From the IMG/VR virus record IMGVR_UViG_3300048883_000494, positions 1 to 22,324 of that record: a DNA stretch of 22,324 nt, one strand, 5' to 3'. Origin of the DNA: a virus. Both the position numbers and the translations under genes were made by a program. Each line of letters opens with the position of its first letter. The stretch's first letter is position 1. The notes under the pieces were generated by a model that was not told the origin of the DNA, ran no database searches, and saw only the letters and a list, made by a program, of their open reading frames with translations. This document shows positions 1,086-20,057 of the stretch, in pieces.

Positions 1086-2360
1086 GTGTTGAATATAGAT
1101 TTTAATAGACGAGAATTTCTAACATACGGAACGAGTTGTCTAGGAGCATTTCTAGCTAATAAAAACGTTGCAGTTTTATATGCTGATGACTATGCCCCCA
1201 AAATGAGTAAAAATGAAAATAGCGTAATTTTTCTATGGATGGGCGGAGGGGCTACTCACATAGAAACTTTTAACCCCATTCCTAATGCACCTATTGAAAG
1301 AAGGTCGGCCACCGGATTTATTGATACTAAAATTCCATCAGTTAAATTAGGCGGTCTTTTCAAAGAAGTAGCAAAAAGATTTGACAAGATAAATGTCGTC
1401 AGAAGTTTTGCCCACAAAGATTCCAGTCATCAAACCGCTACACATTGGGTGGTTGGAGGGGAGAAAAACCAAGGAGGCACTGCTCAAAACTACCCTAGCT
1501 ATGGAGCTATGGTTGCAAACTTCTACGGACCAGTATCTCACCTTCATGGTTTGCCCACATATATCAAAATGAATAAGATTGAAGGTGATGGTGCGGCTTG
1601 GTTGGGGCAAAAATATATGGGCTATGAGGCCAGCAAAGAGGGTATAGGCGATTTGCAACTCAAGATGCCCAAAGATAGATTCATGAAAAGAAAAAGTCTT
1701 TTAGACTTAGTAGAGAATCATTCCCCATTAAGTGGACAAAAAATGTCTTGGAGAGAATTCCAAAGTCAAGCTGTAACTGCGATTACTGGAAAGGCCGCAG
1801 AAACTTTCCGAATAGAAGAGGATGCCAAGTATGATACATTCAAAGACAATCAATTAGGCAAGGACGCTCTCTCAGCCATAAGGGCTATTCAAAATGGTGC
1901 AAAATTTGTAAACATTCAATATGGTGGATGGGATATGCACAGCAATATTGTCAATGGCCTCGAATCCAGACAGGTGGTTTTGGATAAATATATAGCACTT
2001 TTGATGGACGAGCTACAAGTTAGAGGTCTTTTTGATAAAACGCTATTAGTTGTTGCTACAGAATTTGGCAGAACACCAAAAATCAATAGTAATGCAGGCC
2101 GTGACCACTGGAGTGGAAGCATACCACTCATGCTTGCCGGTGGCGGATATGAGGCTGGACGTGTTATCGGAAAGTCTAACGCCAACGCAGAAGTGCCTCA
2201 AGATGGAGAGTGTGGCCCAGAAGATTTACGATGGACTGTATTGAACCATGTGGGCTTGCACAGAAATAATACTTGGATGAGCATAGAAGGTCGTCCAATG
2301 CCAGTTACTGGTAGCGAGGAAAAGAACATCCTAACTGACATCCATGCAGGTATTGGGTAA
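1086..2360 (+). CDS. DUF1501 family exported protein, copy 1
   Basis: A 424-residue protein matching DUF1501 (PF07394), abundant in Planctomycetes and Verrucomicrobia and related to the sulfatase/alkaline-phosphatase fold (family knowledge). Visible hallmarks are a twin-arginine N-terminus (NRREFL, residues 7-12), FLWMGGGATHIETF (49-62), the His-rich HKDSSHQTATHWVVGG (110-125), GGWDMHSN, and the late block TEFGRTPKINSNAGRDHW. The conserved His and Asp residues may bind metal, but no reaction is established. The Tat-like signal implies export after folding. Translation starts at a GTG 6 bases after AAGGAG (1074-1079); no better ATG exists. It is followed 17 bases later by a second DUF1501 gene, probably an old duplication because the two are clearly divergent. 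The family call is strong and the function unknown. Confidence 0.9.
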   Translation: MLNIDFNRREFLTYGTSCLGAFLANKNVAVLYADDYAPKMSKNENSVIFLWMGGGATHIETFNPIPNAPIERRSATGFIDTKIPSVKLGGLFKEVAKRFDKINVVRSFAHKDSSHQTATHWVVGGEKNQGGTAQNYPSYGAMVANFYGPVSHLHGLPTYIKMNKIEGDGAAWLGQKYMGYEASKEGIGDLQLKMPKDRFMKRKSLLDLVENHSPLSGQKMSWREFQSQAVTAITGKAAETFRIEEDAKYDTFKDNQLGKDALSAIRAIQNGAKFVNIQYGGWDMHSNIVNGLESRQVVLDKYIALLMDELQVRGLFDKTLLVVATEFGRTPKINSNAGRDHWSGSIPLMLAGGGYEAGRVIGKSNANAEVPQDGECGPEDLRWTVLNHVGLHRNNTWMSIEGRPMPVTGSEEKNILTDIHAGIG

Positions 2361-2377
2361 TATAGAGGGGTAAGTAA

Positions 2378-3595
2378 ATGGAGAGAAGATCTTTTTTATC
2401 ATCGTTTGCTGGGCTATTCGCATTAACGCAAACCCTCAAAGCCAATGAGCAGGAATTAAAGAAAAACGGCAAATCAGCTATCCTGCTATGGATGGGCGGA
2501 GGTCCGTCTACGATGGACATATGGGATCTAAAGCCAGACTCTCCTACGGGTGGTCCATTCAAGCCCATTACCACCTCTGGGGATGTTGAAATCTGCGAGC
2601 ACATGCCCTTAATGGCGAAGCAGATGCACAATATGGCTATTATTCGTAGCATGAGCACCCGTGAAGCAGATCATACGCGGGGCAAATATTACATGCATAC
2701 TGGGTATGTCCCAAGCCCAAGCATGGAACATCCAAGCTATGGTTCTGTAATATCGAAACAGCTTGAAAACGATAATATTAAAATTCCACAGTTTGTTTCC
2801 GTGAACGGTGGCAGTATGGGGTCAGGATTTTTGGGAGCGCAGTATGCCCCGTTTTTAGTGAATGGTGATGGTCAAGTGAAAAATCTAGACATCAAGATAG
2901 ACGCAAGATTCTATAAGCGGATGCAATATTTAGATGTGTTAGAGAACAACTTTATAAAATCCAATAGAGGCTTACTACCAAAAGAACATCAGAGAGTTCT
3001 AAAGAAGACCCTTGACGTTTTGACCAGTAAACAGATGGAAGCCATGAAGGTTGCGAACGAATCAGAGGTAGTAAAAGAAAGATATGGAGACAATGGTTTT
3101 GGTAAGGGATGTCTTATGGCTCGACGGTTAGTAGAGGTGGGGGTTCCCTTTATTGAAGTCGGCCTTGGAGGATGGGACAATCATCAAAACATTTTTCCCA
3201 TCTTAAAAGATACTAGACTCCCGGTATTAGACCGGGGAATGAGTGCCTTAATGGAAGACTTGGAACAGCGAGGTCTATTAAAAGATACTGTTGTCATATG
3301 GATGGGAGAGTTTAGCCGAACCCCCCGGATCAACGCCGACGCGGGCCGTGACCACTGGGCGGCGAGCTGGAGTGTAGTGGTGGGAGGAGGAGGAATGAAC
3401 GGAGGTATCTCTGTCGGAAGTACCAGCGATGACGGAAAGAGAGTCGAAGGCATAGCATATTCATCCCAAGATATAATGGCTTCTGTTTGTAATGCTTTAG
3501 GTATTTCTCTTAAAACCACCTTTACAAGTAATAACGGAAGGCCGATGAAAATTGCTAACTCGGGAAGAATTATTAAGGAATTATTTACCGCTTAG
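2378..3595 (+). CDS. DUF1501 family exported protein, copy 2
   Basis: A 405-residue DUF1501 protein, closer than copy 1 to the usual planctomycete form. It begins MERRSFLSSFAGLFAL, a compact twin-arginine signal (Arg3-Arg4). It then shows WMGGGPSTMDIWDLKP (38-53), TREADHTRGKYYMHTGY (94-110), EHPSYGSV, GGWDNHQNIF and GEFSRTPRINADAGRDHW. Spacing between blocks is like that in copy 1, so neither copy is obviously truncated. It probably acts in the periplasm; the substrate is unknown. The start ATG follows GAGGGG. The segment encoding MEDLEQRGLLK (3251-3283) is closely matched at nucleotide level inside the next small gene. In cellular planctomycetes DUF1501 genes usually neighbour DUF1549/DUF1553 cytochrome genes; none is seen here, which fits transfer into a virus-like genome. 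Confidence 0.92.
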   Translation: MERRSFLSSFAGLFALTQTLKANEQELKKNGKSAILLWMGGGPSTMDIWDLKPDSPTGGPFKPITTSGDVEICEHMPLMAKQMHNMAIIRSMSTREADHTRGKYYMHTGYVPSPSMEHPSYGSVISKQLENDNIKIPQFVSVNGGSMGSGFLGAQYAPFLVNGDGQVKNLDIKIDARFYKRMQYLDVLENNFIKSNRGLLPKEHQRVLKKTLDVLTSKQMEAMKVANESEVVKERYGDNGFGKGCLMARRLVEVGVPFIEVGLGGWDNHQNIFPILKDTRLPVLDRGMSALMEDLEQRGLLKDTVVIWMGEFSRTPRINADAGRDHWAASWSVVVGGGGMNGGISVGSTSDDGKRVEGIAYSSQDIMASVCNALGISLKTTFTSNNGRPMKIANSGRIIKELFTA

Positions 3596-4513: not shown

Positions 4514-4542
4514 TTGACAAAAAGCTGTTTGTAGACTATAAT
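4514..4542 (+). promoter_or_regulatory. Consensus sigma70-type promoter for the replication block
   Basis: TTGACA at 4514-4519 and TATAAT at 4537-4542, both perfect hexamers with an optimal 17-base spacer. It lies in the 162-base gap before the polymerase N-half gene, the longest gap in the window. Transcription should begin near 4549-4550. A match this exact suggests strong use of the host vegetative RNA polymerase. Confidence 0.88.
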
Positions 4543-4645: not shown

Positions 4646-6283
4646 ATGGACTGGTTTCCGCTGTGCAATTATACTCATTATTCACTACAAAGAGGTTTTT
4701 CTAAGCCAAAAGAGCTGGCAAAAAAATGTTCTGAAAATCTCTATCCCGCCTGCGGCATCGCTGATTACAAATCTATATCCGGTGCCGTTTCTTTCTATCA
4801 ATGCTGTATAGCTAAGAATATCAAGCCTATTATCGGTTGCTCATTTGACGGATTCTCTCTATTCGCCAAAAACAAGCAAGGGTGGCTTGATTTAATACGG
4901 CTTGTATCTTCCCTTGACGACGACGGTAATCTTGATAGCATTCTATTGCTAGATACCACCTCTCTGGGAAATCTAATCTCAATCGCTACAAACGTAGCAG
5001 ACTCTCCAATACAGGGTGCAGACTTTTATAAAAAGTCAGAATCCTTCATGGATATTTACTATACAGACAAAGAAGATGCTAATCTTCACAGAATCATGCT
5101 ATGCTCCAGCATGAAAACGACCCTACCTAAAATTAACAAGCTAATTAGGGGTGGTGGTTCTGTTAATAACCAAAGTTTCTTTGAGTCAAATGATTTCTTT
5201 CTAAAGAATAAAATTCAAGTAACAGAGTCAATTCTTAGAGATAATAAGACTGATCAGTTCAAAGAAATATATAAGAAATGTGAGAATTATAATATTCTAA
5301 ATAAGCCCATGCTCCCTATTTTCCCAACGCCCAACGGCGAGCCAGAAGAAGAATATTTGAAAAAACTCTGTAGGGAGGGTTGGACAAAACTTCTAGTTCA
5401 AGAGGGCAAGGTCAAAAATTCTGACGACAAACAAAAGTATCTTAATAGATTTTTGATGGAACTGGAAGTTATCAATAATGCTGATTTGTTTGGCTATTTT
5501 CTAATAGTGCAAGACATCGTGAACCATGTTGATAGCATGGGTTGGCTCTCTGGACCCGGAAGAGGTTCCGCCGCAGGTTGTTTGATTTCTTATCTTATCG
5601 GTGTTACTAAAGTTGATCCCATTGAGTTCGATCTTCTTTTTGAAAGATTCTATAACTCTGGACGAAACACAGAAGATCATATCTCACTGCCAGATATTGA
5701 TATTGATGTTCCCGGAAATAAACGAGACGAGATCATATATTACCTAAAAGAAAAATACGGTCATGGCAATGTAAGCCAGATGATCACGTTTGGTAGATTA
5801 CAGGGGCGAAGTGCTATTAAAGAAGTCTTAAGAGTAAATGGGGCTTGTAGTTTTGGAGAAATGAACGAAATTACTAAGTCCATACCAGACGAGGCTTCAA
5901 TCTCAGATCAGCTTGCGGAGATGGATGACGATGATCGGTCTATCATTAAATGGGCTTTAATAAATAATGCTGACGAATTAAGAGACTATTGTTTTATTAA
6001 TCAAAACGGCGAACTAGACGGCGATTATGCTGAATTTTTCGATCAGGCAATATTTATAGAGGGTACGTTTAAAACACAGGGCAAACACGCCGCTGGCGTA
6101 GTTATCTCTTCCGAGATGCTAAATAAAGTTTGTCCAATGGTGAATCCTAAAAGCGGAACTGAAAAGGTTGCGGGTTTAGAAATGGCCGACCTAGAAGCTT
6201 TGGGACATGTAAAGTTTGATATTTTGGGTATTAATCTTTTGGACAAGCTTATGAAAATCAAGGAGATAATTAATGAATCGTGA
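4646..6283 (+). CDS. dnaE: DNA polymerase III alpha subunit, N-terminal half (PHP-like + palm)
   Basis: A 545-residue C-family polymerase fragment. Residues 1-70 align with the PHP start (YSLQRGFSKPKELA, KPIIGC), but the usual HxH metal pair is Cys7/Tyr9 and the usual TDH reads ADY (Asp40-Tyr41), so PHP nuclease activity is probably lost. Palm motifs are GPGRGSAAG (303-311), PDIDID (349-354, catalytic Asp352 and Asp354), QGKHAAGVV (478-486) and VKFDILG (522-528, third catalytic Asp525). It stops just after that Asp, before the fingers, which are encoded separately at 7496-9052. ATG 4646 follows AAAAGGA; a TTG 15 bases upstream is in frame but less likely. It has its own consensus promoter and overlaps the exonuclease gene by 11 bases. 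The fragment can work only by assembling with the C-half. Confidence 0.93.
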   Translation: MDWFPLCNYTHYSLQRGFSKPKELAKKCSENLYPACGIADYKSISGAVSFYQCCIAKNIKPIIGCSFDGFSLFAKNKQGWLDLIRLVSSLDDDGNLDSILLLDTTSLGNLISIATNVADSPIQGADFYKKSESFMDIYYTDKEDANLHRIMLCSSMKTTLPKINKLIRGGGSVNNQSFFESNDFFLKNKIQVTESILRDNKTDQFKEIYKKCENYNILNKPMLPIFPTPNGEPEEEYLKKLCREGWTKLLVQEGKVKNSDDKQKYLNRFLMELEVINNADLFGYFLIVQDIVNHVDSMGWLSGPGRGSAAGCLISYLIGVTKVDPIEFDLLFERFYNSGRNTEDHISLPDIDIDVPGNKRDEIIYYLKEKYGHGNVSQMITFGRLQGRSAIKEVLRVNGACSFGEMNEITKSIPDEASISDQLAEMDDDDRSIIKWALINNADELRDYCFINQNGELDGDYAEFFDQAIFIEGTFKTQGKHAAGVVISSEMLNKVCPMVNPKSGTEKVAGLEMADLEALGHVKFDILGINLLDKLMKIKEIINES

Positions 6284-6947
6284 CATCATCGTATTTGACT
6301 TTGAAACGGGCGGGAGAAACCCTCTAAGGTGTCAACCCACACAAATCGCCGCTATCGCATTAGATGGTAGGAATTTTAGGTTGAAAGGAGAGTTCAATAG
6401 CATGATGCGTCCAATTCTAGACGACGACAAAGCAATCGCAGCGGGTGTCGATCCAATTGAAGAGGGTGCGTTAAAAGTTACTGGTCAAACAAGGGCACAG
6501 CTAGCCAAAGCACCTCTGCCAAGGGGCGTGTGGAAAAAGTTTGGCACGTTTGTTAACAAGTATAACTGGAAAAGTACGCCCTATTTTGCTCCCATCCCGG
6601 CTGGATTTAATATCATTGGATTCGATATGAAAATTGTAGATAGGCTATGTAAGGAATATGGTCCTTGGGATGAAAAAAGAGAATCCCAAAAGCTGTTTCA
6701 TCAAATCTATAAGATTGACGTGATGGATGACGTATGGCTATGGACTGAGGGTGATCCAAATGTCAAATCTATTAGCATGGATTCGCTGAGAGAGAGAATG
6801 GGGCTTTCTTCGGAGAATGCTCACGATGCGTTGCAAGACGTTAAGGATACAGCCAACATCTTCATTAAACTACAAAAGTCCAGAAGGGCTGTTTATAGAA
6901 ACATGAAATTTGAAAAGGCGTTTGCTGACGGAAAGCTATATGTATGA
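6273..6947 (+). CDS. DEDDh 3'-5' exonuclease, DnaQ/epsilon-like proofreading subunit
   Basis: A 224-residue DnaQ-like exonuclease. The acidic motifs are complete: ExoI Asp9 and Glu11 (VFDFETGG), ExoII Asp118 (GFNIIGFDMKI), and ExoIII HDALQD with His184 and Asp189. DEDDh enzymes remove 3' nucleotides and proofread for C-family polymerases, as epsilon does in E. coli (family knowledge). Its gene sits between the two halves of the polymerase, and that polymerase's PHP residues are lost, so proofreading for it is the natural role. AAGGAG (6260-6265) precedes the ATG, which lies inside the end of the N-half gene; its own end overlaps the next gene by ATGA. The last 30 residues (RRAVYRNMKFEKAF) are basic, and no clamp-binding motif is obvious. 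Confidence 0.93.
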   Translation: MNRDIIVFDFETGGRNPLRCQPTQIAAIALDGRNFRLKGEFNSMMRPILDDDKAIAAGVDPIEEGALKVTGQTRAQLAKAPLPRGVWKKFGTFVNKYNWKSTPYFAPIPAGFNIIGFDMKIVDRLCKEYGPWDEKRESQKLFHQIYKIDVMDDVWLWTEGDPNVKSISMDSLRERMGLSSENAHDALQDVKDTANIFIKLQKSRRAVYRNMKFEKAFADGKLYV

Positions 6948-7432
6948 ACGACAAAAGATACAATATGATTAATCGTAGGAATGCTGTAAAACTTGGACTC
7001 TCTCCTCTTTTACTCCTTTTTGCTGGAGCGAAAGCCGTAGCTAAGGTAGAACAACCCAGATGGGATATTGTCGCCAGAGCTATGGAAGTTATGAAAGAGG
7101 GGGTCAAAGTAGATCCTGTAGTATATTATACGTCACATAGTGGTCAAAAGGTTACGTGCTATAGGACAAATATTGGTAAGCCGTTCAGTAGAATTTGGAT
7201 TGCTAAAAGATATTACGATGTAGATCCAATTGAACATCATGTTTTATCATATCGAGCAACGAAAAAAGTGATTGATGATATAAAAGAAACTGAACATTAC
7301 GCTGTAAACGACAAAAAATTTGATCATAAGACCATCTACACATACTATTACTCTGGAAGCTTTGTTGGTCCAGAGAGATCTGTGTGTGTTATATGGGGTC
7401 AACCAATAATTAAATATGATTCTACTCCGTGA
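6944..7432 (+). CDS. Tat-signal protein of unknown function inside the polymerase locus
   Basis: A 162-residue protein starting at an ATGA overlap with the exonuclease; an in-frame ATG at 6965 (MINRRN) is an alternative start. Neither has a strong ribosome site, so translation may be coupled. It has twin arginines (Arg11-Arg12 in NRRNAVKLG), a hydrophobic stretch SPLLLLFAGAKA (20-31) and an Ala-X-Ala site near 29-33, a credible Tat export signal. The mature part is about 130 residues, rich in Lys, Tyr and His, and I recognise no domain; it has a single Cys in TCYRTN and another in SVCVIWG. Why an exported protein is encoded between two polymerase halves is unclear. It may be a later insertion or may belong with the exported cassette upstream. 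Confidence 0.8.
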   Translation: MNDKRYNMINRRNAVKLGLSPLLLLFAGAKAVAKVEQPRWDIVARAMEVMKEGVKVDPVVYYTSHSGQKVTCYRTNIGKPFSRIWIAKRYYDVDPIEHHVLSYRATKKVIDDIKETEHYAVNDKKFDHKTIYTYYYSGSFVGPERSVCVIWGQPIIKYDSTP

Positions 7433-7495
7433 AGTTCTGTAAGCTGTTTTACGACAGTATACATGAGGGTTTAATATCAAAATTGGAAAAAGATA

Positions 7496-9052
7496 ATGAT
7501 TGATTATAAAGATAAGAAAACTTGGGATTTATTTAAGGACGGCAAGACAAAGGGCATCTTCCAGTTAGAAAGTAATCTAGGTAGGAACTGGTCTAAAAAA
7601 TTAGAACCTTCTAATCTAGAAGAATTAGCCGCGCTGATTGCGCTAATCCGACCGGGTTGCCTAAAGGCTATCATTGATGGCAAGTCCATGACCCAAAGGT
7701 TTGTTGATAGAAAACATAAGAATGAAGAAGTTACCTATCTGCATGACGCCTTAGAGGATATTCTAAAGCCCACCTATGGAGTACTTGTTTATCAAGAGCA
7801 GTCTATGCGTATAGCGCAGAAGTTAGCTGGTTTTGACCTAAAAAAAGCCGATGATCTTCGTAAGGCTATCGGAAAGAAGAAGGCAGAACTTATGGCTTTT
7901 ATTCGTGGTGACTTTATTACTGGCTGTAAAGAGGTTGGCTTAGTTGACGAAGACACAGCCTCTGAGATCTTTGGTTGGATCGAGAAATCTTCTAGGTACT
8001 CCTTCAATAAGTCTCACGCAGTAGCCTACGCGGTTGACTCTTACTGGTCCGCTTGGTATAAAGCGAATCATACGAACGCATTTTTCCTATCCTACCTGTT
8101 CTACGCAAACGAAAAACAAGATCCCCACCAAGAAATATATGAACTAGTGTCGGAAGCTAAATTGTTTGACATAGAAGTAAAAATTCCCAAGCTTTCTTCT
8201 CATAGCTTAAAGTTTAATATTAAACCTGATGGTATATACTTTGGCATCAAGGATATCAAATGTTTAACAGGAGTCACTGGCGATAAGGTTTGTGTTGGAA
8301 TCAAAGATTCCGAAGATGAGGCTGATAAATGTGCGTCTGAGTTTACTTGGATGGACACTCTAGTATATTTATCTCCAAGAATTAATGCTACGGCATTCAA
8401 GGCTCTATGCTCTATTGGATTTTTCTCTACCAAATCTACAAACGTATCTCGGAATAGAGCTTTGTATGAGTATTTGATTTTTAGAGAACTAACAAAAGCA
8501 GAAGCAAACTGGGTTCAGAGATGGTATCCAGAAAAACTATGGGATAGCTTATATGAATGCTTGCAGGAACTTGCTCCTACTAAAAAAATGGGCGGAGGAA
8601 CCAGCAAGGTAGGAAGAATGCAGATTATACACAACGAGGCCGAAATGCTTCAAAATCCACCGTATGACTTGTCGGACGATCCCACTTGGATTATTGAACA
8701 AGAGACAAAATTTTTAGGTTGTCCAATTTCTTTGTCTAGAATTGACGCGGTAGATACATCCATTGCCAACAGTACATGTAAAGATATCCTTAGCGGTAAA
8801 AGAGGAAAAGATATTTGCATAGTGGCCAATGTGAATAGATTAGTGAATCACACAGTTAAAAAGGGAGAATCCAAAGGAAAGCTCATGTCTTTCCTTACGA
8901 TTGAAGACCAAACCTGCTCCCTAGACAGCGTGGTGGTCTTCCCAAGGGCAAGAAGCCAATATCAATTTATTTTATATGAAGGAAATAATCTTATGCTATG
9001 CGGGGAAGTACAGAAGGATTCATTTATTGTTAACAAAATTCATGAAATATAA
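7496..9052 (+). CDS. dnaE: DNA polymerase III alpha subunit, C-terminal half (fingers, HhH, OB)
   Basis: A 518-residue fragment continuing the C-family polymerase. It opens shortly before the fingers motif GIFQLES (20-26), then IRPG (51-54), YGVLVYQEQ (94-102), KAIGKK (123-128) and SFNKSHAVAYA (169-179), all typical of DnaE. Residues about 290-312 look like the helix-hairpin-helix (INATAFKALCSIGFFS), and 437-512 like the OB fold (FLTIEDQTCSLDSVVVF). The N- and C-halves join with almost no missing sequence; together they total 1063 residues against about 1160 in E. coli. There is no intein or Cys/Ser extein junction. The ATG at 7496 has only a weak GGAAAAAG site, and the frame is closed by a stop at 7472-7474. 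A weak promoter-like pair (TTTACG, TTTAAT) lies at 7448-7475. Confidence 0.93.
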   Translation: MIDYKDKKTWDLFKDGKTKGIFQLESNLGRNWSKKLEPSNLEELAALIALIRPGCLKAIIDGKSMTQRFVDRKHKNEEVTYLHDALEDILKPTYGVLVYQEQSMRIAQKLAGFDLKKADDLRKAIGKKKAELMAFIRGDFITGCKEVGLVDEDTASEIFGWIEKSSRYSFNKSHAVAYAVDSYWSAWYKANHTNAFFLSYLFYANEKQDPHQEIYELVSEAKLFDIEVKIPKLSSHSLKFNIKPDGIYFGIKDIKCLTGVTGDKVCVGIKDSEDEADKCASEFTWMDTLVYLSPRINATAFKALCSIGFFSTKSTNVSRNRALYEYLIFRELTKAEANWVQRWYPEKLWDSLYECLQELAPTKKMGGGTSKVGRMQIIHNEAEMLQNPPYDLSDDPTWIIEQETKFLGCPISLSRIDAVDTSIANSTCKDILSGKRGKDICIVANVNRLVNHTVKKGESKGKLMSFLTIEDQTCSLDSVVVFPRARSQYQFILYEGNNLMLCGEVQKDSFIVNKIHEI

Positions 9053-9121: not shown

Positions 9122-9439
9122 ATGAACAATTGTACATTTACTGGATATTTGACCGAAGACCCTCAAATAGAAAATGACGACGGTCCAAGTTGTTGTCTTT
9201 TTAAGATGGTTACTTACGAATATCGTAAAAACAGGAGTGGGGAGAAGAAAAGATATCCTACCATTCTTAGTTTTGAAGCTTGGCACACGGGCGCAGACGC
9301 TATTGCTAAATTAGCAAAAAAAGGAACTAAGATGACGATCTATTCCTCCGCTAGAAATGGCCAATTTAAAACAGATTCGATTGACGACGTGATTTTTAGA
9401 GTAAACGAATTTGACTTTGGATGCTTGGACAAGGAATAA
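9122..9439 (+). CDS. ssb: Single-stranded DNA-binding protein (SSB-like OB fold)
   Basis: A 105-residue protein with the SSB pattern: NCTFTGYLTEDPQIE at the start, CLFKMVTYEYRKNRSGEKKR with its basic strand pair (about 22-41), FEAWHTGADAIAKLAKKGTK (53-72), and a final strand FRVNEFDF. It should coat single-stranded DNA at the replication fork used by the divided polymerase just upstream. It lacks the Gly/Pro-rich linker and the acidic DDDIPF-type tip through which bacterial SSBs recruit partners; it ends GCLDKE. A strong GGAGGG site precedes the ATG. It stands between the polymerase and the glycosyltransferase operon, ending one base before the first transferase start. Confidence 0.85.
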   Translation: MNNCTFTGYLTEDPQIENDDGPSCCLFKMVTYEYRKNRSGEKKRYPTILSFEAWHTGADAIAKLAKKGTKMTIYSSARNGQFKTDSIDDVIFRVNEFDFGCLDKE

Positions 9440-9440
9440 T

Positions 9441-11123
9441 ATGAGAAAAAAACGAATTCTATTTTGTAGCGAGGCCACTTTTCTGAATACTGGCTACGCT
9501 ACATATACAAGGGAAATTCTAAATTATTTACAGAGTACTGACAAATACGAATTGGCAGAGATGTCCTCTTACGGACAAAGAAATGACCCCAGAGCAGCCA
9601 ATATACCGTGGAAATATTATGGTGTAGCACCAAATACCGACTGTGAGCCAAAAGCCCCCGAAGAAGAAGTCAATGCCTATAACTCGTCTGGTACTAATCA
9701 GTTTGGAGAATGGATATTTGAACATGTTTGTTTAGACTTCATGCCAGATATCGTATGTGATATCCGCGATTTCTGGATGCTTGAATTTGCGGAGAGATCT
9801 CCATTTCGACCATATTTTAAATGGGCCGTGATGCCAACGGTTGACGCCAAGCCTCAAGCTAGGCAGTGGATAGCAAGCTACGAATCCGCAGATGCCTGCT
9901 TTACATATTCTGATTGGGCGGGCAAAATTCTAGAAGATCAATCTGGCGGCAAAATCAATTATCTTGGTAGCGCCCCTCCCTCTGCACATCCGGCGTACCA
10001 ACCCATTCCCGATAAGAAAGCTCACAAGATATCAATGGGGGTTGATCCAGAATATAAAATCATTGGAACAGTAATGCGTAATCAAAGACGTAAACTGTAT
10101 CCAGATTTATTCGAGGCTTTCAAGAAATTTTTAACAAAATCAGAGGATAAAAAGTATTATCTATACTGCCATACCTCATATCCTGACTTAGGCTGGGACA
10201 TTCCAGAGTTGATACAAGAGTACGGTCTTGCCTCACACGTTCTGTTCACATACATTTGTCCCGAAACCAAACAGCCTTTTCCATCTCTCTTTAATGGAGC
10301 GGTTGCACAATCGCCCTTCACTGGCAGGTGGGGATCGACACTATCAAATGTCAAAAACGGAGCATCCTACGAAGATCTATCTAGAATTATTAATTTATTT
10401 GATCTTTATACTCAATATGCTAACTGTGAGGGATTTGGCTTACCACAAGTAGAAGCGGCAGCATGTGGAGTTCCTGTCTGTGGCACGGACTACTCTGCGA
10501 TGGAAAGCGTACTTAGAAAGCTAGAAGGTTATCCCATTAAACCAGCGGCTTTGTACAAAGAATTGGAAACTGGCTGTCTCAGGGCCGTTCCAGATAATGA
10601 AGAGGCTGCTAACTATTTCTTGGACTTTTTTGCTAATACGGAAGAAGAAAGATTGGCCCAAGGAAATAGGACGAGAGAAAATTTTGAGAAATATTATCAA
10701 TGGCACCTTAGTGGTAGTCAGTGGGAAAAATATTTTGACAGCATAGAAATTCATCCCGTTCAGCAAACTTGGGCGTCTCCGCCCAAAATACACCAACCCG
10801 CAGAAAAGCCCAAGGACATGCCCCCAAATATAAACTCCAATCACCTATCCAGATGGTTGATCGTAAATGTGTTGGGCGATCAATCCAAAATTAACACATA
10901 TTTTGAGTCAAGAATGACCCGAGACCTGTTATACAAAACCGCTACAGCTTCAACCGGGGGTATGTATTTCAATGAGTCATCTGCCGCATTTGACGGAGTC
11001 CATCATAGAGTTCCATTTAATTTTGATATAGCCTACGATCAAATGTCCTCACAGTGTATGAGAAGGAACCACTGGGAAGAAAAAAGAGTTTCACTTATGA
11101 AACAAAGGGGTTTGATCCAATGA
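9441..11123 (+). CDS. GT4-like glycosyltransferase with C-terminal extension
   Basis: A 560-residue GT-B fold transferase, first gene of the glycan operon. The N-terminal acceptor domain starts ILFCSEATFLNTGYATYTRE, and the donor-binding signature CEGFGLPQVEAAACGVPV is at 329-346. Residues 271-307 (TYICPETKQPFP to NVKNG) occupy the place where I recall related phage transferases carrying a four-Cys zinc knuckle; here one Cys remains. After the GT core a Pro-rich linker (about 455-470) leads to a 90-residue tail (WLIVNVLGDQ, ASTGGMYFNESSAAFD) of unknown role. ATG 9441 follows AAGGAATAAT; the frame extends 30 bases upstream inside ssb without a ribosome site. It probably uses a nucleotide sugar in the cytoplasm; donor and acceptor are unknown. 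Confidence 0.88.
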   Translation: MRKKRILFCSEATFLNTGYATYTREILNYLQSTDKYELAEMSSYGQRNDPRAANIPWKYYGVAPNTDCEPKAPEEEVNAYNSSGTNQFGEWIFEHVCLDFMPDIVCDIRDFWMLEFAERSPFRPYFKWAVMPTVDAKPQARQWIASYESADACFTYSDWAGKILEDQSGGKINYLGSAPPSAHPAYQPIPDKKAHKISMGVDPEYKIIGTVMRNQRRKLYPDLFEAFKKFLTKSEDKKYYLYCHTSYPDLGWDIPELIQEYGLASHVLFTYICPETKQPFPSLFNGAVAQSPFTGRWGSTLSNVKNGASYEDLSRIINLFDLYTQYANCEGFGLPQVEAAACGVPVCGTDYSAMESVLRKLEGYPIKPAALYKELETGCLRAVPDNEEAANYFLDFFANTEEERLAQGNRTRENFEKYYQWHLSGSQWEKYFDSIEIHPVQQTWASPPKIHQPAEKPKDMPPNINSNHLSRWLIVNVLGDQSKINTYFESRMTRDLLYKTATASTGGMYFNESSAAFDGVHHRVPFNFDIAYDQMSSQCMRRNHWEEKRVSLMKQRGLIQ

Positions 11124-12271
11124 AAGTATTGTATATAGGACATTATAAAGAGTTCGGTGGTTGGGCGCAGGCTGCTACTGATCAAATATTAGCACTTGAC
11201 ACCGTTGGAATAGATGTTGTGTGTCGAAATGTTACGTTGACTAGAGACAAGCAAGACGTTCACCCCAAGTTGTTAGAGTTAGAACAGAAAGACTCATCTA
11301 ATTGTGATTTCTGTATTCAACACGTATTGCCGCACCACCTTGTAGGAACCAAAGCTTTTAAGAAGAACATAGCGTTTTTAGAAGCAGAGTCTGATAGCAT
11401 AAAACAATTGGCTTGGTTTGAATGTTTAAAACAAATGGATGAAGTTTGGGTTCCGAATGAAGATTTGTTAAATTCTTTGATTAACGATGCGTCACAAGAG
11501 GGGTGGCAGATTTCCGCCAAGCTGGTCCATCACGCAACAGACATCGAAAAGTATAAAAAACAGTATGAAAATATGAGCATACCCCAAGCAAATGATTCTT
11601 TTAAATTCTATTACGCCGGAGACTTTAACGATAGAAAAAACCTAGAGTGTATATCTAGTTGTTTTCACAGTGAATTTGATAGGTCAGAAGACGCCGTTCT
11701 AATTATTAAAACCAGAAAATTTGGGAAATCAAGTGAAGAAACAAAGGCTGAACTAGACAACAAATTTTCCCATGTTAAACACCTTCTGCGAATTTATTCT
11801 TCCTTAGATCAATACAAACAAGATATTGTTATAGCTGAGGAGATAACCATAGAACAAATGTACGCACTTCATAATTATTGCGATTGCTTTCTATGTCCAT
11901 CTCATGGAGAGGCTTGGTCTATACCCTCTGTTGATGCTATGGCGTTTGGCAATACACCAATATGCAGCAATTTTGGGGGTCCAAAAGAATTCATCACTGA
12001 GGATGAAAATACGGGTAAATTAATTGACGGTCACTTTGCAGTTTGTAAATGTTCTGACGCGGCTTTTCCAGACATTTTTACAGCACGAGAGTATTGGTTT
12101 CAACCCTGTGAAAAACAAATTAGACAACAAATGAGAAAGTACTATGAAAGTTATAAGAAGAACCCGATAGTACATAAACAAAAGGCTAGGGCCGCTGGCT
12201 TGAACAGCGTTGCTAGATTCTCCCACGAGAATATTGGAAAACGAATGTTGGAGATACTAAATGAGTCATAG
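11120..12271 (+). CDS. GT4-like glycosyltransferase
   Basis: A 383-residue GT-B transferase. The N-terminus VLYIGHYKEFGGWAQAA (3-19) carries the acceptor-domain Gly-rich turn, YYAGDFNDRKNL (164-175) starts the donor domain, and SHGEAWSIPSVDAMAFGNTP (261-280) is the GT4 donor-binding signature (E-x7-E-like pattern with the second Glu replaced by Asp). Translation starts at an ATG sharing ATGA with the previous stop, with AAAGGGG about 10 bases upstream; the open frame before 11120 lies inside the upstream gene and is ignored. This coupled arrangement suggests that consecutive transferases are made in fixed proportion. The sugar transferred cannot be deduced. Confidence 0.88.
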   Translation: MKVLYIGHYKEFGGWAQAATDQILALDTVGIDVVCRNVTLTRDKQDVHPKLLELEQKDSSNCDFCIQHVLPHHLVGTKAFKKNIAFLEAESDSIKQLAWFECLKQMDEVWVPNEDLLNSLINDASQEGWQISAKLVHHATDIEKYKKQYENMSIPQANDSFKFYYAGDFNDRKNLECISSCFHSEFDRSEDAVLIIKTRKFGKSSEETKAELDNKFSHVKHLLRIYSSLDQYKQDIVIAEEITIEQMYALHNYCDCFLCPSHGEAWSIPSVDAMAFGNTPICSNFGGPKEFITEDENTGKLIDGHFAVCKCSDAAFPDIFTAREYWFQPCEKQIRQQMRKYYESYKKNPIVHKQKARAAGLNSVARFSHENIGKRMLEILNES

Positions 12272-13253
12272 AACATTATCAATAATAAACAAAGCGATTC
12301 ACGGTAACACTAAAGACAAATACAATATATTAACTTTTGATACTCACGAAAGATATCAAACTCAGTTGTGCAAAACTGGGCACAACTTCTATTCTTTTAG
12401 ATACGACGATTGTAAGGAATGGGACGAGACATATGCAAAAAAACCTAAGAATTATTACACTATGCCCAAAAACTCGGTTATGTCGGGAATCCAATTCGAC
12501 GCAATACTAAGTCAAAGTAAGTTCGGTCAGTTCCAAGTGGCTAGTCAAATAAATAATAGTTTTGGCCTGCCACTCATATCATTAGAACATACCCTGCCTA
12601 TCCCAAGTTGGCCAGAGTCTCAATTGGAGACATTTAAGAATTTAATTGGAGACATGAATATCTTTATATCAGAATATTCAACTAAACAGTGGGGCATGAA
12701 CTGTGACAACGGTGTCGTTCATCACTCTGTTGATTCAGAATTATTCAAACCACGAGACATAGAAAGGCAACCCGTGGTTCTTAGCGTTGTAAACGATTTT
12801 GTTAACAGAGATTATTGCTGCAATTATAGTGGCTGGAAGAGAATTACTGAGGGGATTGAAGTAAGACTAGTAGGCAATACAGAAGGATTATCCGAACCAG
12901 CCAAGTCAACCGACGATCTTGTCAACGAGTATTGCTCCGCTCAGGTATTCTTAAATACTTCAACGATTAGTCCGGTTCCCACGTCTCTGTTGGAGGCTAT
13001 GTCCTGTGGCTGTGCGGTAGTAACAACGGCTACATGTATGATACCAGAGATTATAGAAAACGGTGTAAATGGATTTATGTCAAATGATGAAAAAGAATTA
13101 AAGCAATTCATTGATCAATTACTTGGCGATAAAGATCTTAGGAACAAGATGGGAGAAGCTGCACGACAAACAACGCTTGATCAATTTTCTGAGGAAAAAT
13201 TTATTAATAACTGGAACACAATATTTGACAAGGCTTGTGAGGTTCAAAAATGA
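12261..13253 (+). CDS. GT4-like glycosyltransferase
   Basis: A 330-residue GT-B protein, somewhat short for the family. The N-terminal domain is divergent (YNILTFDTHERYQTQL, 21-36). The interdomain VHHSVDSELFKP (153-164) is the common start of the donor domain, and SPVPTSLLEAMSCGCAVVTT (236-255) with IPEIIENGVNGF is the classic GT4 nucleotide-sugar site. The ATG lies 11 bases inside the end of the preceding transferase and has GGAGA at a good distance. It ends in an ATGA overlap with the methyltransferase-like gene. It is probably one of several sequential enzymes building the same glycan. Confidence 0.88.
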   Translation: MSHRTLSIINKAIHGNTKDKYNILTFDTHERYQTQLCKTGHNFYSFRYDDCKEWDETYAKKPKNYYTMPKNSVMSGIQFDAILSQSKFGQFQVASQINNSFGLPLISLEHTLPIPSWPESQLETFKNLIGDMNIFISEYSTKQWGMNCDNGVVHHSVDSELFKPRDIERQPVVLSVVNDFVNRDYCCNYSGWKRITEGIEVRLVGNTEGLSEPAKSTDDLVNEYCSAQVFLNTSTISPVPTSLLEAMSCGCAVVTTATCMIPEIIENGVNGFMSNDEKELKQFIDQLLGDKDLRNKMGEAARQTTLDQFSEEKFINNWNTIFDKACEVQK

Positions 13254-13666
13254 AAATACATGTGACAAGGATGGATCAAGAAACAGTAGAAAATTACGAC
13301 CACGTAGTAGTAAGTGACAACCATATTAATTTTTTAGATATTTCTGACAACGAATGTCAAGAAATTTTAGCTAACGATGTGTTAGACAATTTTTCAATAG
13401 ATAAAGTGGGCGAATGTATCACCAGCCTCGTTAACAAATTAAGGTTGGGAGGAACCCTTGTTGTGGGAGGAAAGGATGTAAGACTATTTGCGAAGGCCGT
13501 ATTAAATAACGGAATCAGTGAAATTGTAGCGTCTGAAATAGTAAATTCATGTCAATCAATGTCATCCATTAATGATGTTGTCCCGGTATTGCAACATTTA
13601 GGGTTGAAGATTATTAATACCAACGTTGCCGGTATTCATTATGAGGTAAAAGCTTCAAGGGGTTAA
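13250..13666 (+). CDS. Methyltransferase-like protein lacking the SAM-binding N-terminus
   Basis: A 138-residue protein resembling the second half of a class I methyltransferase. ILANDVLDNFSI (39-50) matches the usual shVLEH-type strand and helix, and LRLGGTLVVGG (64-74) matches the LkPGG segment. The Gly-rich motif I that binds S-adenosylmethionine is absent; the protein starts almost directly with VVVSDNHINFLDISDNE. It may be a non-catalytic partner, a degraded gene, or a family with a minimal fold. The start uses an ATGA overlap with the upstream transferase. No frameshifted N-terminal half was seen, because the preceding DNA is fully used by the GT gene. Confidence 0.7.
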   Translation: MKIHVTRMDQETVENYDHVVVSDNHINFLDISDNECQEILANDVLDNFSIDKVGECITSLVNKLRLGGTLVVGGKDVRLFAKAVLNNGISEIVASEIVNSCQSMSSINDVVPVLQHLGLKIINTNVAGIHYEVKASRG

Positions 13667-13667
13667 A

Positions 13668-14459
13668 ATGGATTGTCAAGATTGTGTTTTTTCAACTTAC
13701 AACGTAGACAAAACTAAGCAGGTGGGCTGCGAGGCTGGCAGGCTTGAAGTTCTAAAAGAAAAGGACATGGCAAAACCAGTTTTAGGGAAACCATATTACG
13801 AACTAAAACAATTCTGTAACATGTACAGAACCAAGGTGTGGGGGAATAAATTTGATGCAGAAGATTTAGTAGCTAGAGCTACACTCGAATCAATGTTAAC
13901 TTTTGGCATAGTGATAGAGATTGACTCAGAAAATATTGACCAACTAAACCAAACTTTAGACTCAATAAAGTCGATAGATTATCCTCAGAATAGGATCGGC
14001 ATAATTCTATCTAAACATGGTAATACTGCCAATGTTCAAAATTATGTTAATAAGGTTGTCGAGTTACAAGAACTGAATTTAAGATCAAGATTAGTCGTTC
14101 ATGGCGAGGTGGATATAGCCACAAGAGATAGAGACGCCTTCTACCCCTTAATAGTCACAAAGTATGGCTATCTTACTAAGATAAGGCCCGGATCAAAAAT
14201 TGATTGTCAATATTTTAATTTCATAAATTCCGAGGTAAATGATTCATTAAATAAGGTCGGCCTTTGTGAAGATTGCGATAACGGAGTATTAGCAATACAC
14301 TCGAAGGTGGTAAACAGCTCTTATCTAGATTTTGAGAATTTCGACTTAATGGCCGAAGAATTGAAAAAACACGGACGGGAACTTTCAAATCAGAGTACGT
14401 ATATAAAATATGAGAAAAAAAAACAGATTCATAACAAGCCCTCAAACAAAACAGGTTGA
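13668..14459 (+). CDS. Divergent GT-A-like protein with four N-terminal cysteines
   Basis: A 263-residue protein. The N-terminus has CxxC (Cys3, Cys6), then Cys21 and Cys50, in a layout (CQDCVFSTY, QVGCEAGRLE, FCNMYRTK) suited to a zinc or iron-sulphur site. From about residue 79 (FGIVIEIDSENIDQLNQTLD, then SIKSIDYP) it resembles the first strand and helix of family 2 transferases, but no DxD motif follows clearly. The C-terminal tail is Lys-rich. The start follows AAGGGG, 1 base after the previous stop. Its last 50 bases overlap the nucleotidyltransferase gene, and an A9 run in that overlap could shift ribosomes into it. It may be a degenerate or regulatory transferase; the function is uncertain. 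Confidence 0.75.
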   Translation: MDCQDCVFSTYNVDKTKQVGCEAGRLEVLKEKDMAKPVLGKPYYELKQFCNMYRTKVWGNKFDAEDLVARATLESMLTFGIVIEIDSENIDQLNQTLDSIKSIDYPQNRIGIILSKHGNTANVQNYVNKVVELQELNLRSRLVVHGEVDIATRDRDAFYPLIVTKYGYLTKIRPGSKIDCQYFNFINSEVNDSLNKVGLCEDCDNGVLAIHSKVVNSSYLDFENFDLMAEELKKHGRELSNQSTYIKYEKKKQIHNKPSNKTG

Positions 14460-15159
14460 TGGTAATGAGCTTGACGGTTTTATATCCGTTGTATTGTTTG
14501 GAGAAAATCACGGATATAGAATGAAGTCATATGGCCCAATACCATTAATGAAAATAGAGGGCAAAACACTTATACAAAGACAGGTCGAGTCTATAAAAGC
14601 CACCTTCAAAAATTTTGAGATCATATTATGCTCAGGGTTTGAGACACAAAAAACTGTTGAATTTATAAAAGACAATTTTGCAGATGTCAATATCAGGGTG
14701 GTAGAAAATCAAATGCATTTTAATTCAAATTGCTGCGAGAGTGCTAGACTATGTATTAACAATATAAATAACGATAAAATACTATTTTGTGGGGGCGGGA
14801 TTCTTATGACACCGGACTCACTTAGAAGTATAGATTATAGGGTGTCAACCGCATTATACCAAGATGAAGGTGATTATAAAGACTTTGATATAGGAGTGAT
14901 CCACAGCGGGGGGGAATTAACATCTCTTGCCCTCGGGATTAAAGCAAAGGTATGGACAGAAATAATTTATCTATCTAACAAGAAATCAATAAAGTCTCTC
15001 TATCATACAGTTTCAAACCCCGATTACAAAAATAGATTCATGTTTGAAGCAATAAATGAGTTAGTGAGGAATAATAGGGTTTTTGTGAAAAATAACGATC
15101 ACAAATCTGTAATAAAGATCAACAATATAAAAACGCTCAGAAGGATTACAAGGATATGA
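14410..15159 (+). CDS. Sugar nucleotidyltransferase-like protein, probably degenerate
   Basis: A 249-residue protein with the N-terminal plan of sugar-1-phosphate nucleotidyltransferases: SVVLFGENHGYRMKSYGPIP (26-45), LMKIEGKTLIQRQVESI, EIILCSGFE and VVEN. The nucleotide-binding loop is altered (GENHGYRM instead of GxGxR), and the metal-binding Asp expected after the second half-Rossmann strand is replaced by FCGGGILM (126-133). It may therefore be inactive or use an unusual substrate. The only plausible start, ATG 14410, lies 50 bases inside the preceding gene and has no clear ribosome site, so translation may rely on coupling or on frameshifting at the A9 run. It ends in an ATGA overlap with the next gene. 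Confidence 0.78.
   Translation: MRKKNRFITSPQTKQVDGNELDGFISVVLFGENHGYRMKSYGPIPLMKIEGKTLIQRQVESIKATFKNFEIILCSGFETQKTVEFIKDNFADVNIRVVENQMHFNSNCCESARLCINNINNDKILFCGGGILMTPDSLRSIDYRVSTALYQDEGDYKDFDIGVIHSGGELTSLALGIKAKVWTEIIYLSNKKSIKSLYHTVSNPDYKNRFMFEAINELVRNNRVFVKNNDHKSVIKINNIKTLRRITRI
14415..14423 (+). repeat. A9 homopolymer within the overlap of two genes
   Basis: Nine consecutive A bases lie inside the 50-base overlap between the GT-A-like gene (13668-14459) and the nucleotidyltransferase gene (14410-15159). A +1 shift here, equivalent to reading eight A bases, would join both frames into one protein of about 496 residues. It could be a slippery site or a sequencing-length error. Confidence 0.6.
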
Positions 15160-16034
15160 GAACATTAATTCAAAACTATACCTCTGCATTATCAACGGAG
15201 CCAATGTATATTCACAGATGCCTGTCGGAGTGTGGATATGAAACATCTCTATGGTCCGACCCACAAATGAGCGCTTATGACACCTTTGATATGTACCAGC
15301 CGAATTTATTTATAACCCACTACAAATTTTTGACCAACGACATAGTGAAGTATCTGTCGAAAAAAAAACAAATCAAAATGGTATTAAATATTTCTGGGGC
15401 CAGTCAATCAGAAATAGACGTTATAGAAAACATTGCTAAAGCAAAGAATGTAAATATCCCCTTTATGTTTACCAACCTGTACGAATCCAATAATAATGTA
15501 AAGACAAAAAATATTAAATGCATCAATTTATATCCAGCAGCAGACATTTTTTTGGCACCTGCTCCGACCCCTGACTATAACCTACAAGCGTGTGTCATTA
15601 GCATACAGAAAAATGATTTAGCGGAGCGGGCCATTGAGAACAAAGAAACCTACCACACACTTTCCTTGAACCCGGAAAGTTCAGATTACGCAGATATGAG
15701 CCTAGACGTTGCTGGGCTATCTAGTTTTTATCACAAGTATGATGAAGTCATTTTAGCAGACGATGTTAATCTTGTGACATCTCAGATACTTTTTGATTCT
15801 ATTTTAAAATCTAAGAAGGTAACCCTGAGAGTTCCTGAAAACCAGCAAAAATTGTTAGATTCTATTTTAGCCAGTTTATTTATAGAGGATAATTCAAAGT
15901 CTGACATATCTGATTTGATCAGGGGGCAAATAAAAAGAAAGCATAATTGTTTCAAAAGAACAGCCCGACTTTTTCGGGCGTTGAAGATAGAAGATGTTTC
16001 CCAAAAATTAGAAGGAATCAGTGATAAGTTATGA
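15156..16034 (+). CDS. Unidentified protein of the glycan operon, possibly GT-like
   Basis: A 292-residue soluble protein with no signal peptide. It starts TLIQNYTSALSTEPMYIHRC and includes LFITHYKFL (51-59), a Rossmann-like beta-alpha pattern around KMVLNISGASQSE, and a later YDEVILADDVNLVTSQILFD (193-212). The last segment recalls the C-terminal region of CgeB-like or GT-B-like proteins, where a Ser-Gln pair precedes a helix, but no diagnostic donor-site motif is visible. It starts at an ATGA overlap with the nucleotidyltransferase gene and ends in an ATGA overlap with an epimerase gene, so it belongs to the same operon. A GC-rich hairpin lies within its last codons (15963-15979). The function is not assigned. 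Confidence 0.8.
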   Translation: MRTLIQNYTSALSTEPMYIHRCLSECGYETSLWSDPQMSAYDTFDMYQPNLFITHYKFLTNDIVKYLSKKKQIKMVLNISGASQSEIDVIENIAKAKNVNIPFMFTNLYESNNNVKTKNIKCINLYPAADIFLAPAPTPDYNLQACVISIQKNDLAERAIENKETYHTLSLNPESSDYADMSLDVAGLSSFYHKYDEVILADDVNLVTSQILFDSILKSKKVTLRVPENQQKLLDSILASLFIEDNSKSDISDLIRGQIKRKHNCFKRTARLFRALKIEDVSQKLEGISDKL

Positions 16035-16921
16035 GAACTATAGTTACTGGAGGGGCGGGCTTTATAGGATCACACATAGTCGATAGACTGGTGAAAGATG
16101 GACATGGTGTGATGGTCATTGATAATGAATCGTCAGACTCTCACGAACAATTTTATTATAATAAAGACGCTGAATACATATGGTATAATGTTCAAGATTT
16201 TTACGACATAAATCATTTGTTTGAAGGTGTAGATTGTGTTTTTCATTTGGCAGCAGAAGCAAGTATTCAATCGTGTGTCACCAATCCCACTTTCGCCATT
16301 AGCTCAAACGTTACTGGCACCTGTAGTGTGCTTCAAGCCGCTGTAGAGAATGGGGTAAAAAGGGTAGTCTTCTCTTCCACCTCTGCCGCCTACGGGATTG
16401 CTAACGACCCACCTCTATCAGAAAGTATGGAAACTGATTGTCTTAATGCTTATTCAGTTTCTAAATGTGCTAGCGAGCAGCTATGTAAGATGTTTTATAA
16501 ATTGTATGGACTGGAAACAGTTATATTTAGATATTTTAATGTTTACGGAGAACGACACCCTACTAGTGGGCAGTATGCACCGGTTATTGGCTTGTTTCAA
16601 AAGCAGGTTGAAGAAAGTTTGCCACTCACAGTGGTTGGAGATGGCCTACAATCTCGTGATTTTATACATGTCTCAGATGTTGTGGAGGCAAACATAAAAG
16701 CAGCGTTTACCGATAACAAGAAAGCAATTGGTGAAATAATCAATGTCGGCTCAGGTAAATCACACACTGTTATGGATCTTGTGAAAATGATAGGAGACGG
16801 ATTTTATATAGATATTCCAGAAAGAAAGGGGGAAGTAAGACATAGTCAGGCCGACATATCGAAGGCCAAAACATTATTGAACTGGACTCCACAAGTTGAC
16901 TTAGAGGAATGGCTCAAATGA
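16031..16921 (+). CDS. NAD-dependent sugar epimerase, GalE-like extended SDR
   Basis: A 296-residue extended short-chain dehydrogenase. It has a Rossmann NAD site GGAGFIGS (7-14), the acidic end of strand 2 (VIDNESS), FHLAAEAS (71-78), FSSTSAAYG (114-122) with catalytic Ser/Thr at about 116-117, and Tyr141 with Lys145 in AYSVSKCASEQ. FRYFNVYGERHP and DFIHVSDVVEA are typical of UDP-glucose/UDP-GlcNAc 4-epimerases and related enzymes. The catalytic set appears intact. It should supply an epimerised nucleotide sugar to the transferases around it; the exact substrate is not readable. Start and end both use ATGA overlaps, showing tight coupling. Confidence 0.92.
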   Translation: MRTIVTGGAGFIGSHIVDRLVKDGHGVMVIDNESSDSHEQFYYNKDAEYIWYNVQDFYDINHLFEGVDCVFHLAAEASIQSCVTNPTFAISSNVTGTCSVLQAAVENGVKRVVFSSTSAAYGIANDPPLSESMETDCLNAYSVSKCASEQLCKMFYKLYGLETVIFRYFNVYGERHPTSGQYAPVIGLFQKQVEESLPLTVVGDGLQSRDFIHVSDVVEANIKAAFTDNKKAIGEIINVGSGKSHTVMDLVKMIGDGFYIDIPERKGEVRHSQADISKAKTLLNWTPQVDLEEWLK

Positions 16922-17655
16922 GATTACTAATCCAGCTTCCAACTCTTAATCGCCCTGACAAATTTCTAAGTGTACTCGATAAGTATGTGAATAAGGCCAG
17001 TGGTCACTGGATAGATAACAAGAGGTATGTAGATTTATTTTTCAATATCAATTGCGATATTGATGATGACTCAATGAATAACGACATGATGAAATATAAG
17101 ATCAGTGAAATATTGAAACAGAATCCATTCGCGGGCTATAAGATACACTATGATAAAAATACTGAGAAAATTAGTTCCATAAATGCGCACATTGATGATT
17201 TCTGGATAGACTATGATATAATAGTATGCGCCTCAGATGACATGGTGCCCCAAGTTAATAACTGGGATTGGGAAATAATTTGGGCGATGGGGGAACATTT
17301 TCCAGATGGAGATGGCTGCGTACATTTCAATGACGGTCATACCGATGGCAAATTAATTACCTTCTCTATTTTGGGTAAGAAGTTGTATGATCATTTTGGA
17401 TATATATATCATCCAGATTATAAAAGTCTATACTCCGACGATGAGTTCACACGCGAAGTTACACGTATGGGGAAAGTAGCATATATTGATAAAGTTATTA
17501 TCAAACATGAGCATTACGGGGAAGAGGGGAATATTAATTCTGGTGATTTTGACCTCGCCGCCCAAAAAACCCTTCATTATGCTGGAAGAGATCAGTTCGT
17601 TTTCAATAAAAGAAAAGAACTTGGATTTCCCCGAAACAAAATTACTAATGACTAG
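16918..17655 (+). CDS. GT-A-type glycosyltransferase
   Basis: A 245-residue protein read from the second of two in-frame ATGs. ATG 16918 shares ATGA with the epimerase stop and has GAGGAA 8 bases upstream; ATG 16909 would add MAQ. It opens LLIQLPTLNRPDKFLSVL, the usual GT2 first strand and helix, and has IIVCASDDMVP (101-111), a DxD-like metal and nucleotide site. GCVHFNDG and VIIKHEHYGEEG provide plausible later active-site His and Asp residues. It is probably a cytoplasmic transferase using a nucleotide sugar and a divalent metal. It ends 8 bases before a methyltransferase with a strong ribosome site. Confidence 0.82.
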   Translation: MRLLIQLPTLNRPDKFLSVLDKYVNKASGHWIDNKRYVDLFFNINCDIDDDSMNNDMMKYKISEILKQNPFAGYKIHYDKNTEKISSINAHIDDFWIDYDIIVCASDDMVPQVNNWDWEIIWAMGEHFPDGDGCVHFNDGHTDGKLITFSILGKKLYDHFGYIYHPDYKSLYSDDEFTREVTRMGKVAYIDKVIIKHEHYGEEGNINSGDFDLAAQKTLHYAGRDQFVFNKRKELGFPRNKITND

Positions 17656-17663
17656 GAGGTAAG

Positions 17664-19153: not shown

Positions 19154-19156
19154 CTA

Positions 19157-20050: not shown

Positions 20051-20057
20051 GGTTAAG

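Follow-up and report, generated by a model that had tools for sequence, protein, structure and literature searches.

A C-family DNA polymerase divided into two chains, probably the replicase of a large lineage of uncultured phages

Split replicases described earlier are either isolated PolB cases in phages or the DnaE of cyanobacteria, the halves of which are ligated by inteins just before the FNKSH motif in the fingers. In Aeromonas phage 25, the split polymerase proteins gp43A and gp43B co-purify and are active (PMC2988022), and breakage by homing endonucleases has been proposed for the split nrdA, gene 60 and gene 43 of T4-like phages (PMC2988022). Phage MIJ3 carries a split PolB with an intein (PMC6892783), and fractured genes are reported to combine a split intein with an endonuclease (Dassa et al. 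2009). For the group 2.2 jumbo phages, the published text describes a minimal split Pol III alpha, encoded by distant genes alongside a PolB replicase, and suggests that the break lies between the NTP-binding and Mg-binding subdomains (PMC7824862). Here, we describe a stretch of viral DNA of 22,324 b (IMG/VR record IMGVR_UViG_3300048883_000494; the whole of this stretch is referred to as the window) in which the C-family polymerase DnaE is encoded by two genes, divided between palm and fingers, with an exonuclease gene between them. The evidence presented below makes it very likely that the enzyme is a C-family replicase consisting permanently of two chains, and that it belongs to a large, uncultured phage lineage in which the gene was broken once.

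Two complementary DnaE halves and their break point

The polymerase genes and those in the gap between them are as follows:

4646..6283, + strand: DnaE N-half, 545 aa, with PHP and palm/thumb domains; aspartates D350 and D352 (PDIDID) and D525 (VKFDILG)
6273..6947, + strand: DEDDh 3'-5' exonuclease, 224 aa, its start overlapping the N-half stop by 11 b; recognised by Pfam/PHROG matches and active-site residues
6944..7432, + strand: open reading frame (ORF) of 162 aa with a Tat-like N-terminus (RRNAVKLG), an insertion restricted to the window and outside the conserved system
7496..9052, + strand: DnaE C-half, 518 aa, with fingers, post-finger helical region and OB fold

The N-half extends from an ATG at 4646 to a stop at 6283 and matches the Pfam families PHP (9e-14) and DNA_pol3_alpha (2.4e-67, over all 260 positions), and the C-half, from an ATG at 7496 to a stop at 9052, matches DNA_pol3_finger (9.4e-48). 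The same model is the best match for both halves in NCBIfam (NF004226; N-half at positions 206-576 and C-half at 587-1049 of 1146) as well as in PHROG (family 405; 244-617 and 626-1081 of 1190). Since the two matches to each shared model lie only about 10 positions apart, the halves jointly cover one enzyme. Between them they contain the features of a DnaE-type C-family polymerase, namely the PHP domain, a palm with three catalytic aspartates, the fingers, the post-finger helical region and the OB fold; the tau-binding domain that comes next in E. coli alpha is absent from the C-half. A single chain, which is usual for DnaE but not strictly defining, is not found, as in all members of the clade described below the halves have separate starts and stops and constitute two genes. 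The PHP domain of the window's subclade is shortened (window positions 4646-4970) and has lost its first metal-ligand histidine, the N-half being 545 aa long in this subclade as compared with approximately 630 aa in deeper members.

The first-pass annotation of the window had placed the break between palm and fingers, with the N-half ending directly at VKFDILG. The placement stands, but the N-half in fact continues for 17 residues past VKFDILG, and the C-half has 21 residues ahead of FQLES. The resulting linker sum of 38 residues resembles both the 42-50 residues of five fused phage enzymes and the median of 40 over 169 split loci, and therefore essentially no sequence is missing, as had been supposed. 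AlphaFold2 was run on each half separately, with alignments of 88 (N) and 85 (C) sequences, and predicted a well-defined fold for the N-half (pLDDT 94.3, pTM 0.91) and for the C-half (pLDDT 94.6, pTM 0.85). The predicted N-half aligns with residues 4-575 of E. coli alpha (2hnh; Z 28.3, rmsd 3.2, 502 aligned), and the predicted C-half with residues 588-910 of the same structure (Z 20.4, rmsd 3.0, 315 aligned) and, over an apparently flexible domain joint, with residues 588-1073 of 5fku (Z 22.4, rmsd 8.2, 444 aligned). Both predicted halves also match Taq alpha. Because the alignments cover residues 4-575 and 588 onward, the break corresponds to the linker 576-587 of E. coli alpha, approximately 12 residues that lie outside the catalytic core.

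From four IMG/VR scans and a single scan of GTDB genomes, which covered viral contigs and metagenome-assembled genomes (MAGs), 187 distinct C-half loci of the window's type were obtained. The N-half and the exonuclease lie upstream of the C-half in 182 of these, with the same break throughout, and a fused dnaE is present in none of the 187; so frequent a recurrence of break and gene order goes far beyond what chance would produce. The five exceptions comprise two loci that are cut off at contig ends (L075 and L110), two in which the N-half lies elsewhere on the same contig (L094 and L207), and one (L113) in which no N-half was found within 4.3 kb upstream. An additional, fifth scan of viral contigs was seeded with fused phage enzymes and gave 80 loci, among them 75 in which a single open frame contains the motifs of both halves (73 of them simple and 2 having an extra N piece) and four with a separate C-half of interest, taken up further on. 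The break point that the first-pass annotation proposed to seek in related viral contigs is thus recovered, and the uninterrupted dnaE that would have spoken against it occurs, across the five viral-contig scans, only outside the clade. The five genome hits are MAGs from five unrelated lineages (SAR202, Verrucomicrobiales, Alphaproteobacteria, Flavobacteriales and Phycisphaerales), and are probably binned viral contigs.

The catalytic aspartates and the fingers residues are invariant in 182/182 N-halves and 181/181 C-halves, respectively, and dN/dS amounts to 0.01-0.14 for N-half, exonuclease and C-half in every pair with estimable dS, indicating purifying selection. Pairwise distances of the N- and C-halves are closely correlated (r = 0.93 over 163 loci), which mainly reflects shared descent. 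On a phylogenetic tree, the 40 representatives of the split type group together as a single clade (SH-aLRT 100).

Separate chains and the alternatives

Relatives of the window contain elements through which the halves could, in principle, be joined into a normal DnaE after transcription or translation, whether by a group I or II intron, ribosomal bypass or a trans-splicing split intein. Inteins are found in the C-half of L078 and apparently in that of L113, L282 holds a split intein with an inserted endonuclease, and in L111 a LAGLIDADG ORF (L111:3230-4081) interrupts the N-half inside its PDIDID active-site motif. However, Rfam detected no intron in L111, nor in the window region or nine related loci, and Pfam found no intein domain at the break in either half; because the inteins of L078 and L282 were detected, and so serve as positive controls, an intein at the break would have been seen. 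Moreover, an intron core would find no space in 29 of 142 distinct loci, where the coding sequences overlap at both junctions, and the N-half lies ~6 kb (L094) or ~13 kb (L301) from the C-half, with other genes between. Both halves also end within an ordinary linker length, and the locus is therefore not a split-intein DnaE of the cyanobacterial type. Joining is thus very improbable, and given the absence of intron and intein from the break, the halves most likely associate without splicing, in keeping with the initial observation that intein residues are lacking.

A decaying or misassembled dnaE, with the host replicase doing the work, might be suspected because the 22 kb of the window are a fragment from a metagenome and because a few related contigs, such as G010 and L111, have additional gene breaks. 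It is contradicted by 182 concordant distinct loci from many assemblies, by the invariant residues and the predicted, well-folded halves, and by the low dN/dS; decay and misassembly were rejected on the concordant loci and dN/dS, and so hardly any probability attaches to them. It is also improbable that the enzyme is an accessory or repair polymerase and not the main replicase. Such a role was proposed for the jumbo-phage split minimal Pol III, which coexists with a PolB replicase (PMC7824862), and the absence of a recognisable DnaN clamp from the phages related to the window would be consistent with it. Yet PolB (PF00136) was found in 0 of 16 records and PolA in 0 of 15 viral records, the latter being contigs of 122-230 kb that may be incomplete, and since these 15 long relatives hold neither a family A nor a family B polymerase, the two-chain DnaE is probably their replicase. 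All 15 encode DnaB, and 14 have one copy of the alpha palm, the exception being G010 with two. The synteny with a single-strand DNA-binding protein (SSB) gene, the proximity of DnaB, the nearly full length of the enzyme and its clade-wide conservation likewise argue against an accessory role. A search for Terminase_6C was negative.

The 206-kb contig G010 holds a second copy of the cluster (L282:6162-9157). Its C-half is broken at FNK/SH by a split intein around a DUF559 endonuclease, as in a fractured gene, and this copy consists of a polymerase in three pieces together with the exonuclease. Since DnaB and the polymerase are present in duplicate blocks, G010 may be a chimeric contig.

Together, the fixed break, the invariant active sites, the low dN/dS, the predicted folds, the single clade, the lack of a second replicative polymerase in long relatives and the lack of an intron or intein at the break agree with the original proposal of a working two-chain DnaE. 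Several points weigh against this reading. The exonuclease scores well under the equivalog cut-off for DnaQ (TIGR01406, 19.8 bits as compared with 222.7), and its assignment as a proofreader therefore rests on context and active site. The case for an origin through a mobile element is circumstantial, as no gap endonuclease is present in the window or in many relatives. Finally, the clade has no known isolate; the best matches among the cultured phages of INPHARED are ~25-34% identical and, where examined, fused, except in MMB025, in which the polymerase gene is broken at another place, by an endonuclease.

In a permanently two-chain replicase, the N-half, the exonuclease and the C-half would be co-transcribed as a single operon and produced as separate chains, with translation coupled where the genes overlap. 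The N and C chains would pair non-covalently via the palm-fingers interface, which is intramolecular in ordinary DnaE, and the DEDDh exonuclease would bind as the proofreading subunit, so as to form an active core of N-pol, exonuclease and C-pol. This core may in turn work with the phage SSB, the DnaB helicase and, probably, the host clamp. More speculatively, and on balance unlikely, the three proteins could form an obligate heterotrimer, in which the coupled exonuclease helps to fix the palm to the fingers, the polymerising and proofreading functions are assembled as a unit, and palm and fingers can be exchanged separately between phages.

The nested exonuclease and the neighbouring genes

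The first-pass annotation had also recognised a complete DEDDh exonuclease and another gene within the gap, and both are indeed present. The exonuclease retains all of the DEDDh residues, which are kept in every exonuclease sequence of the group that covers them; the aspartate beside the histidine is replaced by glutamate in 5 of 185, and the catalytic D189 is invariant. It matches PHROG 192 ('DNA polymerase exonuclease subunit'), and the nearest solved chains by sequence are the PolC exonuclease, an exodeoxyribonuclease III entry and ExoI. The DEDDh site and the PHROG match make a role as proofreading partner plausible, and the 11-b overlap with the N-half probably serves translational coupling. 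The split does not depend on having the exonuclease between the halves, since a sister clade and the distant locus L307, both discussed below, are divided without it.

In approximately 50 loci (e.g. L103:5080-5307, L117), the gap between N-half and exonuclease encodes two small conserved protein families without a Pfam match, one of 71-87 aa (YQVHS...IDxAVDKFxELK) and the other of ~59 aa (SCCK motif). It is possible that these are further subunits. The 162-aa ORF downstream of the exonuclease has no match in Pfam, PHROG or NCBIfam, and no relative in any other locus compared. It is absent from L002, a locus near-identical to that of the window (N-half 96%), where the gap between exonuclease and C-half is only 40 b; the ORF is therefore a recent, clean insertion of ~0.5 kb that is specific to the window.

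Two further features flank the polymerase genes:

4514..4542, + strand: sigma-70-type promoter-like site, TTGACA-17-TATAAT, a 12/12 consensus match only, the total hits in the region being not above those in shuffled sequence
9122..9439, + strand: SSB (Pfam SSB, 4.9e-07), with a tblastn match in 228 loci

The promoter-like site lies ~100 b upstream of the N-half and is a candidate operon promoter; no terminator-like signals above chance were found in the operon region. The SSB gene is syntenic downstream of the C-half throughout the group. It is followed by a long run of glycosyltransferase, nucleotide-sugar and methyltransferase-like genes (window 9411-22324); for the first glycosyltransferase, synteny extends to 243 loci. 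At the other end of the window, a secreted-looking trypsin-like (HtrA-type) protease (141-1070), with few viral relatives (six loci), precedes two adjoining DUF1501 proteins with Tat-like N-termini (1086-3595), which are here encoded by a virus and have homologues in 47 related loci.

Origin of the break and comparison with known systems

The split clade has a sister clade, comprising L301, L308 and L319, in which DnaE is also split but no exonuclease lies between the halves (support for the joint clade, 100). Its members carry a palm insertion of ~110 aa ahead of PDIDTD, and their N and C genes are up to ~13 kb apart; L113, a locus in the Phycisphaerales MAG and the one with the apparent C-half intein, is not on the tree and was assigned to this clade by synteny and sequence. 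It follows that either the split predates the nested exonuclease or the sister clade lost the latter. Among known relatives a single long chain is nearly universal, and the nearest fused enzymes occur in other phages. In L307:3247-6521, from a distant lineage outside the clade on the tree, DnaE is likewise divided at the palm-fingers linker, its two genes overlapping by 4 b. This is possibly an independent break, although a single origin is not rejected (AU p 0.139).

Homing-type nucleases are frequent in the gaps of relatives, which contain Endonuclease VII or HNH genes, HNH/HTH and PD-(D/E)XK-like genes recognised by inspection, or metabolic cargo. The presence of nuclease genes points to breakage of the gene by a homing-type endonuclease, and a nuclease of this kind was probably the original wedge. 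A single break by such a mobile element would have fallen in a break-tolerant linker, the site later gathering endonucleases and other cargo.

A whole clade of uncultured phages, with long contigs of 122-230 kb, thus appears to have had a two-chain family-C polymerase since its common ancestor. This makes it directly testable whether the palm and fingers of a replicase can operate as separate chains, in what manner proofreading is coupled to a polymerase so assembled, and by what route selfish nucleases divide a single essential gene into several. A natural split DnaE would also be usable as a tool, and its halves could easily be mistaken for fragments or pseudogenes by automated annotation. 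The open literature yielded no account of an intein-free, nearly full-length DnaE that is in two chains throughout a clade and has an exonuclease gene nested between its halves; most subscription journals lay outside this search, and novelty is accordingly provisional, but a conserved enzyme of this kind appears to be undescribed so far.

In gp43A and gp43B of Aeromonas phages 25 and 44RR, a phage replicase is likewise divided into two complementary chains, with a homing-type endonuclease or other insertion at the gap (PMC2988022). These proteins, however, belong to family B and to a few T4-like phages, whereas the polymerase of the window's clade belongs to family C, its palm-fingers break is fixed across a diverse clade, and the gap usually holds an exonuclease. 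The group 2.2 jumbo phages also have a C-family catalytic region in two proteins, but compared with the minimal version described there (PMC7824862), the halves considered here are nearly full-length, from PHP to OB fold, and occur without PolB (0/16 records). Fractured genes, as reported, and the split nrdA of phage Aeh1 (PMC2988022) are phage core genes broken by mobile endonucleases, and a fractured-gene arrangement is seen in the C-half of L282; the palm-fingers break, in contrast, is free of intein halves and, in the window, also of an endonuclease. The fused DnaE of Pseudomonas phage Y1, Moorella phage MTATph1 and Streptomyces phage Circinus have identical domains in identical order, yet the fused phage enzymes examined consist of one open frame of 1033-1198 aa, as opposed to the two genes of the window's clade. 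Lastly, dnaE is likewise carried in two genes in cyanobacteria, but the break in the window's clade lies ~150 residues earlier than the cyanobacterial site, a displacement already perceived in the first-pass annotation, and it is unaccompanied by an intein.

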